A DNA stretch of 34,792 nt from Halobium salinum (GTDB lineage: Archaea > Halobacteriota > Halobacteria > Halobacteriales > Haloferacaceae): the NCBI RefSeq assembly GCF_026586625.1, contig NZ_JAODIW010000006.1, positions 870,267-905,058 of the forward strand, given 5' to 3'. Shown here one piece after another: positions 5,349 to 10,730 of the stretch (its first letter is position 1; every line of letters starts with the position of its first letter). Under the pieces are notes generated by a model. It made no database searches. It was not told the DNA's origin and worked only from the letters and a program-made list of their open reading frames with translations. The translations under genes and the position numbers were made by a program.

Positions 5349-7106
5349 ATGAGCAAACAGGAACCGCGCGAGACGGAGGACGAGGACCGCTTCGCCGGCG
5401 ACAAGGACGACCGGCTCCCGAGCCACGAAGTGACGGAGGGTGCCGAGCGAGCACCCCACCGGGCGATGTTCCGAGCGATGGGGTTCGACGACGAGGACCT
5501 CTCCTCGCCGATGGTCGGCGTCGCCAACCCCGCCGCCGACATCACGCCGTGCAACGTCCACCTCGACGACGTGGCGCAGGGGGCCATCGACGGCGTCGAC
5601 GAATCGGGCGGGATGCCCATCGAGTTCGGCACCATCACCATCTCGGACGCCATCTCGATGGGGACCGAGGGGATGAAGGCCTCCCTCATCTCGCGGGAGG
5701 TCATCGCCGACTCCGTCGAACTCGTCGCCTTCGGCGAGCGCATGGACGCGCTGGTCACCGTCGCGGGCTGTGACAAGAACCTCCCCGGGATGATGATGGC
5801 GGCCATCCGCACCGACCTCCCGACCGTGTTCCTCTACGGCGGCTCCATCATGCCCGGCCAGCACGAGGGCCGCGAGGTGACGGTCCAGAACGTGTTCGAG
5901 GGCGTCGGCACCTACGCCGAGGGAGAGATGAGCGCCGAGGAGTTGGACGACCTCGAACGCCACGCCTGCCCCGGCGCCGGCTCCTGTGGCGGGATGTTCA
6001 CCGCGAACACGATGGCGTCCATCTCCGAGGCGCTGGGCCTCGCACCGCTGGGGAGCGCGAGCGCCCCCGCGGAGTCCGACGAGCGCTACGAGGAGGCCGC
6101 CCGCGCGGGCGAACTCGTCCTCGACGCCGTCGAGCACGAGCGGCGACCCTCGGACATCCTCTCGAAGGAGTCCTTCGAGAACGCCATCGCGCTCCAGGTC
6201 GCGGTCGGCGGCTCGACGAACGCCGTGCTCCACCTGCTCGCGCTCGCGGCGGAGGCCGGCATCGACCTCGGTATCGAGGAGTTCGACGAGATATCGCGCA
6301 AGACGCCGAAAATCGCCAGCCTCCAGCCCGGCGGCACGCGCGTGATGAACGACCTCCACGAGGTCGGCGGCGTCCCGGTCGTCCTCCGGCGTCTGCTCGA
6401 CGCGGGCCTGCTCCACGGCAACGCGAAGACGGTGACCGGCCGAACTATCGCGGAGGAACTCGACCACATCGCGGACTCGCTCCCGGCGGACGACGACATC
6501 GACGTGGACTTCCTCGCGCCCGTCGACGACCCCTTCCACGAGGAGGGAGCCATCAAGATTCTCACCGGGAACCTCGCGCCCGACGGTGCCGTCCTCAAGG
6601 TCACCGGCGACGACGCGTTCCACCACACCGGTCCCGCCCGCGTCTTCGAGAACGAGGAGGACGCGATGGCGTACGTCCAGGAGGGCCACATCGAGTCCGG
6701 CGACGTCATCTGCATCCGCAACGAGGGCCCCCGAGGCGGCCCGGGGATGCGCGAGATGCTCGGCGTCACCGCCGCCGTCGTCGGCCAGGGACACGAGGAC
6801 GACGTGGCACTCCTCACCGACGGGCGCTTCTCCGGCGCCACTCGCGGGCCGATGGTCGGCCACGTCGCCCCCGAAGCCCGCGACGGCGGGCCGATAGCCC
6901 TGTTGAAGGAGGGCGACGAGGTCACGGTCGACATTCCGAACCGCGACCTCTCCGTCGACCTCACGGACGACGAACTCGAGGCCCGCCGCGACGACTGGGA
7001 GCCGAAACCGCCGGCCTACGAGACCGGCGTGCTCGCGAAGTACGGCGAGAGCTTCGGCTCGGCGGCGAACGGCGCGGTGACGAACCCCGGCGCGAAGCGG
7101 GAGTAG
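5349..7106 (+). CDS. ilvD: Dihydroxy-acid dehydratase
   Basis: A 585-residue IlvD/Edd-family enzyme converting 2,3-dihydroxy-isovalerate and 2,3-dihydroxy-3-methylvalerate to the 2-keto acids of valine and isoleucine synthesis. Iron-sulfur ligand motifs are visible: [13 protein letters not shown] near residues 139-151, and the [17 protein letters not shown] block near 207-223. GGSTNAVLH near 286-294 and the C-terminal [16 protein letters not shown] block are family hallmarks. Length is typical. The ATG at 5349 is fixed by the TATA box at 5319-5326. It stands alone, without other ilv or leu genes beside it. It could in principle be an altronate or phosphogluconate dehydratase of the same family, but the motifs and length fit IlvD best. 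Confidence 0.95.
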
Positions 7107-7237: not shown

Positions 7238-8791
7238 ATGAGTATAATCAAAGAAATAGAGACCATCTCCGGATTCGATAGGAATCCGTCGGAGTCGGTC
7301 TCGGAGTACCTCTCCCGACTCGGTGCGGGTGCGGGAATCGACGAGGAGGAGGTGACGCGCGTCCGCGAGGCCGTCCACACCGAGATGTACTCGCCCGACC
7401 CCCTCCCCGAGGAGCGGCGCGCGACGGTCGAGTCGTTCGCCGAGGCGGTTTCGGAGCGGGCGTCGCCGGCGGACGTGGAACCCGACGCCGGGGTAGCGGG
7501 TGGGTCGGCCGCGTCGACCGGGTCGACCGGGTCGACCGGACCGGCCGCCGCCTCGGGGGACGATGGCGTCGGCGCCGGACCGACTGCCACCGAGCGGTCG
7601 GCGAACGATGACGGGTCGGTGGCCGGAACCCTGGAGTCGGCCGCCGCACGCTGGGACCGGGCGTCGAAGTCCTCCCGACGGAAGTTCCTCTCCGGCGCCG
7701 GCGTCGTCGGCGTCCTCGCAGTCGGCGGGGCGGCCGCCGGAATCGGGGCGCTCGGCGGGTCCGGCGACGGGAACGGGACGGCCGCACTCGGCAACGCGTC
7801 GTCGGCCACGGCGACCGGGTCGACGACGGCCGACGAGCCGACCGCCGACGCGACGGGGTCGGCGGACGACGACGGGAGTGAGGGCGAGGTCGCCACCGAG
7901 CCCGCGGAGCGAACGTCTCTCTCCGAGGCCGACCTGCGGTTCGAGGAGTTCGACCTCGCCGAACTCGAGCGGTCGTCGTGGCCACAGGAGGTGCCCGCGG
8001 AGTGTCAGTACGGCGCCGAGGAGCTCTCCTCGATGCCGGACCTCGTCTATCGGGACGGCGACACCGGGTTCGACCCCTTCGCCTCCGCGCGGACGGTGCT
8101 CGGCCTCCTCCGCTGCTACGAGCTAACCGAGGAGCCCGCCTACCTCGACAAGGCGATGTCGATGGGCACGGCGCTCCACGAGGCCGGCGAGGCATACGAC
8201 GGCGGGCTGTTCTTCCCGCACGAGTTCCCGGTCGAACCCCACGTCGACGCCGACTGGACGGTTCGGGAACCGTGGTACTCGGCGACGACACAGGGCCTCG
8301 CGCTCAGCGCGTTCGCGCGGCTGTACGTCGACGGCGGCGGGGAGTCGGCGGGGCGCTACGGCGTGGACGTGCTTCGGTCGCTCGACAGCATCGTGACCCG
8401 TGCGGACGGACCGGTCGCCGAGAACCCGTGGGGCGCCTGCCTCGACGACGAGGGGTACCTCTGGCTGGAGAAGTACGCTCAGCTCCCGGCGAGTCACGTG
8501 TTCAGCGGCCACAACGTCGCCGCGTGGGGGCTGTACGAGATGTGGCTCGCGTACGGGAGCGAACTCGCGCGGGACCTGTTCCGGGCGAGCGCGACGACGA
8601 CGAAGGCCCGGGCCGACGCGTTCCGTAACGAGGGCGGGGTGAGCGACTTCTGTCTGGCACACGGCGTCCAGCGCCCCGAGTACCACCGGCTCCACGTCGA
8701 CCAACTCGGGACGTACCACGAGCTCACCGGCGACGACGCGTTCGCGGCCGCCGCCGAGCGCTTCGCCGAGGACTACGACCCCTCGGCGTAG
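7238..8791 (+). CDS. D-glucuronyl C5-epimerase C-terminal domain protein with internal twin-arginine-like segment
   Basis: Encodes 517 residues in three parts. Residues 1-80 are an acidic helical N-terminus. Residues 80-140 are a Ser/Thr/Gly/Ala-rich linker. At 146-151 comes SRRKFL followed by a hydrophobic Gly/Ala/Val stretch to about 172, which looks exactly like a Tat signal but sits 145 residues in. After another Thr/Ser/Asp linker, residues about 240-517 resemble the (alpha/alpha) C-terminal domain of glucuronyl C5-epimerases (WYSATTQGLALSAFARLY, EGYLWLEKY, HVFSGHNVAAWGLYEMW, YHRLHVDQL, TGD). Those enzymes convert glucuronate to iduronate within polysaccharides; the substrate here is unknown. 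The topology suggests a cytoplasmic N-terminal domain and an outward epimerase. The start has an AT-rich box (near 7202) about 36 bases upstream. No glycosyltransferase is nearby. Confidence 0.75.
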   Translation: MSIIKEIETISGFDRNPSESVSEYLSRLGAGAGIDEEEVTRVREAVHTEMYSPDPLPEERRATVESFAEAVSERASPADVEPDAGVAGGSAASTGSTGSTGPAAASGDDGVGAGPTATERSANDDGSVAGTLESAAARWDRASKSSRRKFLSGAGVVGVLAVGGAAAGIGALGGSGDGNGTAALGNASSATATGSTTADEPTADATGSADDDGSEGEVATEPAERTSLSEADLRFEEFDLAELERSSWPQEVPAECQYGAEELSSMPDLVYRDGDTGFDPFASARTVLGLLRCYELTEEPAYLDKAMSMGTALHEAGEAYDGGLFFPHEFPVEPHVDADWTVREPWYSATTQGLALSAFARLYVDGGGESAGRYGVDVLRSLDSIVTRADGPVAENPWGACLDDEGYLWLEKYAQLPASHVFSGHNVAAWGLYEMWLAYGSELARDLFRASATTTKARADAFRNEGGVSDFCLAHGVQRPEYHRLHVDQLGTYHELTGDDAFAAAAERFAEDYDPSA

Positions 8792-8848
8792 CGGCGTAGT
8801 GGGGCCTCGTGGCCGTCGCGACCGCGCGTTCCCGTTCCCGGCGTCCGC

Positions 8849-8968
8849 TCAGAGGGGAACGAGACCCGTGAGCACGTACAGCGCGGCGAGCGTCAGCATG
8901 GCGACGAAGATGAACGCGAGGAGGTAGTCGAACGTCCCCTCGGGCGTCCCGGTTCTCGGGAGATGCAT
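8849..8968 (-). CDS. 39-residue single-span membrane microprotein (copy A)
   Basis: A short ORF of 39 residues starting MHLPRTGTPEG, with one hydrophobic span at about residues 15-33 and ending GLVPL. The TATA-like sequence GTTATG (minus strand, about 8992-8997) is centred 26 bases upstream of the ATG, as expected for a leaderless gene. It aligns without gaps to the other 39-residue ORF at 9088-9207: over residues 15-39, twelve positions are identical (Y15, L16, A18, F19, V22, A23, L27, A28, L30, V32, V37, P38). Matching length, strand and promoter geometry argue that both are real. Function is unknown; a small accessory subunit of a membrane complex is one possibility. Confidence 0.65.
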   Translation of the reverse strand: MHLPRTGTPEGTFDYLLAFIFVAMLTLAALYVLTGLVPL

Positions 8969-8991
8969 ACCGGAGATACGTCACGCGAGCG

Positions 8992-8997
8992 CATAAC
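8992..8997 (-). promoter_or_regulatory. TATA-like box for microprotein A
   Basis: The minus-strand GTTATG is centred 26 bases before the ATG at 8968. Confidence 0.45.
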
Positions 8998-9087
8998 GCG
9001 CTCGTCGACGGGCGATACGTGTTCGACTCCCTCTTCGAGCCGCCGAGGTCGGGTCGGCCGCGGTGCGACTCGGCACTGGCGGTCGGC

Positions 9088-9207
9088 TCAGATGGGGACG
9101 ACGGCGCCGACGACTGCGAGGGTGGCGAGGCTGACGAACGCGACGGCGGTGAAGGCGGCGAGGTACTCGGCCAACTCCCGCGTCTGTGTGCTGACTCGGA
9201 CGGTCAC
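9088..9207 (-). CDS. 39-residue single-span membrane microprotein (copy B)
   Basis: Encodes 39 residues from a GTG at 9207 (MTVRVSTQTRE), with one hydrophobic span at about residues 15-37 ending VVPI. An in-frame ATG at 9246 would add 13 residues. The GTG is preferred because a TATA-like box at 9231-9236 is centred 26 bases upstream of it, and because this start makes the protein the same length as the homologous microprotein at 8849-8968, with which it aligns gap-free. It lies 146 bases beyond the end of the MFS transporter gene on the same strand but seems to have its own promoter. Confidence 0.6.
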   Translation of the reverse strand: MTVRVSTQTRELAEYLAAFTAVAFVSLATLAVVGAVVPI

Positions 9208-9230
9208 AGGTCGAGCTACGACGCCGAGCC

Positions 9231-9236
9231 GTATCA
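9231..9236 (-). promoter_or_regulatory. TATA-like box for microprotein B
   Basis: The minus-strand TGATAC is centred 26 bases before the GTG at 9207 and supports that start over the ATG at 9246. Confidence 0.4.
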
Positions 9237-9353
9237 GTAGGCGCATCGTGCCGCGCGGCAACGCGACCGGAAAGCCGCGGTATCGAGAACGTACCGAACG
9301 GCGTCGGCCGCGTCGGCGTCGGTCGACGCGGACTTCTCGCGCTCTCGGGCCCG

Positions 9354-10730
9354 TCAGTCCTCGCTCCCGACCGCGGCCCCCTCGACCTGCCGCTCGCCGC
9401 TGGGACCCGGACCGGAGAGCGCGAGGGCGGCGCCCCCGGCGAGGAGCGCGAGCACGGCACCGAGGCGGAACGTCGTGGGCCAGCCGTACCCGCTCACGAG
9501 CAGGCCGGTGACGGCGCCGCCGAAGACGCCGCCCCACATCTTCCCCGAGTACAGCAGCGCGTAGTTCGCGGAGGAGTTCTCCTCGCCGTAGTAGTCGGCG
9601 ACGACGGCGGGAAAGAGGGTGTACTGCGGGCTCCAGAAGAACGTCGCCACCACGACGGCGGCGAGGAAGCCGAGCCGTGAGCCGAGGAGTCCGAACTGGA
9701 CGACCGCGAACAGTCCGAGGCCACAGAGTGTGAACGACGCCGCCATCGCCCGCCGGCGGTCGAGGCGGTCCGATAGTTCGCCGAGCAACAGCCGACCGAC
9801 GCCGCCGGCGATGGGGAGGAGAATCGCGGAGGCAGTGGCCGTCACGGCGTCGAGGCCGACCGCCTGCGCGAAGGAGACGATTTTCGCGGTGAGCATCAGT
9901 CCGGCGCCGCTGACGGCGACGAACATCCCGTACATCAGCCAGAACTGCCACGTGCCGAGCATCTCGCGCCAGTGGTAGTCGCGGGCGCCGCCGGCGCCGT
10001 CCCCGTCCCCGCTCCCGTCGTCCGCCGCGGCGTCGAGGTCGGCGCGTCGGCGCTCGAACCACGACTCCGGCGGGTCGCGAAGCACGAGGGCGGCGACGAG
10101 GATAGCGACGCCGATGACGATGCCCATGTTGCGCAGGACGGCGCCGTAGCCGCCGACCGTCGCGTTCGCCCGGACGTAGGGGACGAACAGGGCCGCGCCG
10201 GCCGCGAACGCCATCGTCCCGGCGCCGGCGGTGAGCCCCTTGCGGTCGGGGAACCACTTCAGCGCCGTGTTCACCGAGATGGTGTAGACGATGCCGACGC
10301 CGAGCGCCCCCAGCGAGTAGAGCAGGTACAGCTCCCAGACGGCGGTGGCGTACGAGAGCAGGTAGTACGCCCCGCCGGCGAGGACGGCCGCCGCGACGGT
10401 GAGCAGTCGGGGGCCGTGGCGGTCGCGCCACCAGCCGACGGGGAACTGCGACCCCGACTGGACGATGACGAACAGCGTGAACACCAGTCCGAGCTGTGAG
10501 AGCGGGACCCCGAGGTCGCGCCCGAGCGGCCCCTCGATGGACGACCAGACGTACTGGTACGGGCTGACGACCGCCATCGCGAGCGCGGCGGCGACGACGA
10601 GCCACCAGCGGGAGAACCCGAGGTGCTCGCGGGCGCGGGCGCCGTAGTCGACCTCCGATAAGGGGGTGTCGGACTCCGGCACGGATGCGTCGGACTCCGA
10701 CGTGGGGGCGTCGGCTGTGTCGTCGCCCAT
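9354..10730 (-). CDS. MFS transporter, OFA (oxalate/formate antiporter)-like
   Basis: A 458-residue major facilitator with twelve predicted spans. An acidic 40-residue N-terminal tail precedes the first span (SRWWLVVAAALAMAV). Family features include SPYQYVWSSIEGPL in the first loop, the loop 2-3 motif GWWRDRHGPR, and a central acidic Gly/Asp loop near residues 225-255. The N-terminal pattern resembles OFA-family members, which exchange carboxylates; the substrate is unknown. The gene starts one base after the stop codon of gamma-glutamyltransferase, so the two are translationally coupled. That suggests import or export of a gamma-glutamyl compound or its product, which is inference. Confidence 0.85.
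   Translation of the reverse strand: MGDDTADAPTSESDASVPESDTPLSEVDYGARAREHLGFSRWWLVVAAALAMAVVSPYQYVWSSIEGPLGRDLGVPLSQLGLVFTLFVIVQSGSQFPVGWWRDRHGPRLLTVAAAVLAGGAYYLLSYATAVWELYLLYSLGALGVGIVYTISVNTALKWFPDRKGLTAGAGTMAFAAGAALFVPYVRANATVGGYGAVLRNMGIVIGVAILVAALVLRDPPESWFERRRADLDAAADDGSGDGDGAGGARDYHWREMLGTWQFWLMYGMFVAVSGAGLMLTAKIVSFAQAVGLDAVTATASAILLPIAGGVGRLLLGELSDRLDRRRAMAASFTLCGLGLFAVVQFGLLGSRLGFLAAVVVATFFWSPQYTLFPAVVADYYGEENSSANYALLYSGKMWGGVFGGAVTGLLVSGYGWPTTFRLGAVLALLAGGAALALSGPGPSGERQVEGAAVGSED

Follow-up and report, generated by a model that had tools for sequence, protein, structure and literature searches.

The stretch of Halobium salinum DNA analysed here (the window; 34,792 nucleotides of contig NZ_JAODIW010000006.1) encodes on its minus strand a 39-residue, single-span microprotein, copy A, which, judging from its homologues, is a genuine protein and a member of a conserved, unannotated haloarchaeal family, referred to as TPEG. 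On balance, copy A is proposed to be a leaderless-expressed, single-helix membrane protein that works together with a heme-copper oxygen reductase of haloarchaea; its likeliest role would be that of a small accessory subunit, the alternative being a factor for assembly or stability of the enzyme. An adjacent frame, copy B, is probably transcribed and is plausibly a tandem copy of A that has since diverged. The features of this region, in window coordinates, are the following.

8849–8968, minus strand: copy A, single-span microprotein of 39 residues, MHLPRTGTPEGTFDYLLAFIFVAMLTLAALYVLTGLVPL (homologues, dN/dS, AlphaFold2)
8976–8978, minus strand: TA(T) near −10 of copy A (A+T peaks common to 48 family members)
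8993–8996, minus strand: TATA-like box of copy A, TTAT, −28 to −25 (A+T peaks common to 48 family members)
9088–9207, minus strand: copy B, single-span 39-residue ORF with a GTG start, probable gene, VTVRVSTQTRELAEYLAAFTAVAFVSLATLAVVGAVVPI (promoter and similarity tests)
9217–9218, minus strand: TA at −11/−10 of copy B (sequence)
9232–9236 (about), minus strand: TATA-like box of copy B, TGATA, −29 to −25 (sequence and matrix)
9354–10730, minus strand: OFA-type (oxalate/formate antiporter-like) MFS transporter gene, upstream of A and B (TIGR00890, MFS_1)

The original prediction described two minus-strand ORFs of 39 residues each, identical at 12 of 25 positions over residues 15–39 and ending in V-P-[L/I]. 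Translation confirms both frames, the identity count (0 of 14 over the preceding residues) and the shared ending, which lies at the stop. Copy A is modelled by AlphaFold2 as one helix spanning residues 9–34, with a mean pLDDT of 90.9. Pairwise searches of related genomes, independent of any profile, returned matches at E 9.7e-11, 1.4e-8 and 5.1e-7, and identities to homologues over nearly the full length are 61% (genome G017), 54%, 53% and 42%. The relatives share the motif M-x-[LF]-P-S-x-x-T-P-[ED]-G-x-[FY]-x-Y-L and one span each; complete members have 33–46 residues, and a few carry longer C-terminal extensions. Their alignment displays a sharp ATG start, P4, T/S8-P9-[ED]10-G11, aromatics at F/Y13 and Y15, 20–25 hydrophobic residues and G35; in the aligned set, P4, P9, G11, Y15 and G35 are invariant or nearly so. 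Copy A has this five-residue pattern and scores 52 bits against the family profile, of which it is itself one row. Among the 391 genomes of the class, the family profile detects members in 65 at E ≤ 0.01, and a profile from a wider alignment detects them in 63 at E ≤ 1e-5.

The TPEG family evolves under purifying selection: within-genus dN/dS is mostly 0.15–0.4 (higher in the weakest two-sequence groups, up to 0.93 for the one pair of genus g58), and the pooled pN/pS is 0.38. Searches of Pfam, NCBIfam and the PDB found no family covering the microprotein, and a plasmid collection gave no match. PetL, Psb34 and LPXTG proteins were considered as relatives and rejected, their matches being at chance level only. 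Copy A does exceed, narrowly, the cut-off of the NCBIfam LPXTG-anchor model TIGR01167 (16.4 against 15.9), because it reads LPRTG at residues 3–7. A cell-wall anchor was nonetheless dismissed: the LPRTG is N-terminal and absent from the aligned relatives, and there is no basic tail. Automatic annotation could mislabel copy A as an LPXTG anchor.

Each start codon had been predicted to follow a TATA-like box, and such boxes do precede both, between −28 and −25 in A and between −29 and −25 in B. Upstream of 48 family members, A+T content peaks at −29 to −25 (88% A/T at −27) and at −11/−10, the layout expected for leaderless haloarchaeal transcripts. Copy A and its relatives are preceded by a putative TATA/−10 promoter spaced for leaderless mRNA. 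A promoter matrix was trained on these 48 members with the window excluded (one of the 48 being the same genome's secD–rnhB paralogue, described below). Scanned along the minus strand from 8700 to 9700, it placed its best site at 8967, 1 nt from the ATG of A, and its second-best at 9207, exactly the GTG of B. The score at 9207 lies in the top 0.11% of all positions and the top 0.3% of start codons; that at A's own ATG is moderate (−2.95) because A's box sits one base closer. The GTG start of B, originally chosen from the TATA position, is now backed by the promoter pattern of the relatives, and copy B is probably expressed. Its length of 39 residues follows from that choice of start, as the original prediction conceded.

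Since this DNA is G+C-rich and holds many spurious long open frames, ORF length is uninformative and both copies had to be judged by independent tests. Copy B might be no gene at all, its likeness to A and the promoter-like sequence ahead of it being coincidences of GC-rich intergenic DNA. Consistent with that, no match to B outside this genome is better than E 0.03; B scores 1.2 bits against the family profile, where A scores 52, and so fails it, keeping Y15 and losing P4, P9 and G11; and A and B differ about equally at synonymous and nonsynonymous sites (pS 0.45, pN 0.48), a comparison without synonymous bias. Chance would, however, have to account for a similarity to A that B alone attained among 1,543 stop-anchored 25-mers sampled from the DNA of this genome (1 of the 17 hydrophobic ones), for a GTG lying exactly where a matrix derived from relatives puts its second-best promoter site in 1 kb of sequence, and for a very high GC3. 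Coincidence is therefore considered unlikely, though by no means negligible; that B is a gene is likely, and that it is a true paralogue of A is somewhat less so, if still fairly probable. The original idea of an overlooked microprotein family stands for copy A, with its homologues in many genera, its purifying selection and no Pfam or NCBIfam family; the duplication itself is plausible only.

The MFS gene (TIGR00890, 259.7 bits, below the cut-off; MFS_1, 169.8 bits) had led to the suggestion that the microproteins serve the neighbouring transporter in an accessory role. Adjacency and a common strand in the window are consistent with this role. The gene is absent, however, from every other locus tested, being seen only in the window's own genome, so synteny is not conserved; the copies have promoters of their own, A lies 385 bp from the MFS stop, and cytochrome oxidase genes recur at the relatives' loci instead. 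The literature searched contained no paper naming an 'MFS transporter small subunit' or DUF6684. A role with the transporter is hardly credible.

The genomic neighbourhoods of the relatives point to the oxidase. Clustering of neighbouring genes at 40 relatives made COX1 and COX2 the most recurrent, with 9 loci each, and the Pfam families at linked loci are COX1, COX2 with COX2_TM, COX3, DUF6684 and DUF6789. The family gene lies inside a cox cluster at 10 loci, from 8 genera and 4 families, and beside DUF6684 at three more, in these arrangements:

L097, L099, L101, L109, L114: coxA–DUF6789–coxB divergent from DUF6684, then the microprotein (DUF6789 not called in all)
L102, L103: the same coxA–DUF6789–coxB arrangement, DUF6684 not called (DUF6789 not called in all)
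L094, L098: coxB divergent from the microprotein, cox3 beyond
L167 (genome G062): cox3, then the microprotein at 71 bp, with coxA and coxB beyond
L112, L113, L168: DUF6684 adjoining the microprotein, without cox genes

The spacing of the microprotein in the coxA–DUF6789–coxB/DUF6684 arrangement is 51–205 bp. By chance, such linkage would be expected at ~1% per locus (P ~ 1e-10). About three quarters of the examined loci are not beside cox genes, and copy A's own is among them, so the linkage belongs to its relatives; the neighbours of stand-alone copies revealed no common pathway and no shared respiratory family. DUF6684 (PF20389) also recurs beside coxA or coxB (L132:5276–5749, L097:5652–5885) and looks like another oxidase-associated membrane protein. 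DUF6789 (PF20587), or a relative of it, separates coxB from coxA or immediately precedes coxA (L133:5113–5652, L094:4222–4665), with the same oxidase subtype.

The same gene neighbourhoods bear on a reading of A and B as the small hydrophobic toxins of a toxin–antitoxin system resembling type I. Such toxins are frequently found in tandem, each copy transcribed separately, and size, single span, tandem layout and individual promoters would all fit. Genomes with the family usually have a single copy, however; its locus is conserved within a genus and in some cases lies inside a cox cluster, and the family conserves a polar N-terminal P-x-G motif, which makes a toxin very improbable.

In the window's own genome the oxidase genes are dispersed: coxA is on contig C13, a cox2 gene is on C2 next to an apparent heme A synthase, and copy A is on C11. 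The distance of A from cox genes is therefore not decisive. DUF6684 abuts a coxA in this genome too, and that copy A does there what its cox-linked relatives do elsewhere is an extrapolation we infer from these comparisons. The genome carries a further family member:

C11:588151–588279 (L166:5980–6111), plus strand: paralogue MNGSWYSSPEGAMNLILGGVLAAALLFGLIFGAVYMGILPTIT, between secD and rnhB

The secD–rnhB position is also occupied in genera g10 and g18, so that g18 likewise carries two family copies. Quite apart from B, this extra member suggests that genes of the family have been duplicated. Retention by every relative was considered and rejected: the copy occurs only in g1, g10 and g18, and in none of the other genera with a placeable rnhB (about a dozen loci were unparsed). 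Separately, a 76-residue ORF (MTGYYDYVLGLIPVAMLGITAVLTLVGFSLSLAVPVG..., L135 around 5850–6090, minus strand; C9:216763–216843) has a weak likeness to the span of A (E 0.38) and no Pfam match. A quite tentative and, in our estimate, improbable extension would have haloarchaeal oxidases carry interchangeable single-helix microprotein subunits, the cox-linked, secD–rnhB-linked and tandem A/B paralogues tuning different oxidase isoforms.

Co-occurrence points the same way as linkage. The subtype of the linked coxA, which has an LVRGGLITD... insertion, was recognized by a 125-residue segment scoring 226–251 bits for the subtype against 102 and 71 for the two remaining coxA genes of the window's genome; it was called at E ≤ 1e-57 (42 of the 391 genomes), and counts were made by hand from the profile tables. 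The microprotein is present in 28 of 42 genomes with the subtype against 35 of 349 without it (Fisher P 1.8e-15, uncorrected for phylogeny), and, by genus, in 17 of 21 against 5 of 65 (likewise uncorrected). It is found in all 11 genomes whose coxA exceeds 230 bits, the window's included; 10 of these 11 coxA genes sit in clusters found through the microprotein, and the window's genome is the independent one. The microprotein went undetected in 14 of the 42 subtype genomes, and it occurs without the subtype in genera g24, g44 and others.

In the preferred reading of copy A as an oxidase partner, membrane insertion and physical association with the enzyme are both inferred. The helix would pack against cox1, cox2 or cox3 in the membrane and thereby stabilise the complex, a role as in other single-helix oxidase subunits; solved structures in the PDB include no homologue. 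A transient assembly or regulatory factor, concerned with heme or copper insertion or with stability and not a stoichiometric subunit, would draw on the same cox linkage, and a promoter that is usually its own and a patchy presence, common among helper proteins, would suit it. On the other hand, the aligned family conserves no metal-binding Cys/His/Met pattern, and small size and cox linkage fit a subunit equally. Sequence does not separate subunit from assembly factor; the transient factor is regarded as rather improbable.

CcoQ/FixQ, CydX and aa3 subunit IV are tiny single-span helices that stabilise terminal oxidases. The accessory helix proposed here resembles them in kind, but searches of Pfam, NCBIfam and the PDB gave no sequence match. 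DUF6684 is likewise a small haloarchaeal membrane protein found beside coxA or coxB, and it adjoins the microprotein at eight loci; it differs in its length of about 75–160 residues, its longer hydrophobic region and its unrelated sequence. The closest parallel is subunit IIa (CbaD) of ba3/B-type heme-copper oxidases, a one-helix protein of 34 to about 78 residues, often unannotated and cox-linked, with a proline conserved in a P-X1-3-G-[T/A] element that immediately precedes the helix (PMC3128077). The microprotein shares this element ahead of its single helix, with TPEGT in copy A and TPEGA in many relatives, the last position being L, S, M or V in many others. The gene of subunit IIa, however, immediately precedes that of a subunit II with one helix, and IIa makes up for the helix that this subunit II lacks (PMC3128077). 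In the present case cox2 carries the two-helix COX2_TM domain, the gene of the microprotein either diverges from cox2 or comes after cox3, and the microprotein matches no Pfam model. Gene order and the two-helix cox2 therefore argue against membership of the microprotein in subunit IIa.

Archaeal annotation misses leaderless genes of fewer than 50 codons, and the TPEG family is a concrete case. For haloarchaeal oxidases, on which structural data are few, the family comes with start sites, a motif that is defined and an enzyme partner that can be tested. Purification has lost subunit IIa of ba3 oxidases in the past (PMC3128077); if the proposal is correct, the TPEG microprotein would be an extra oxidase subunit that purification could easily lose.
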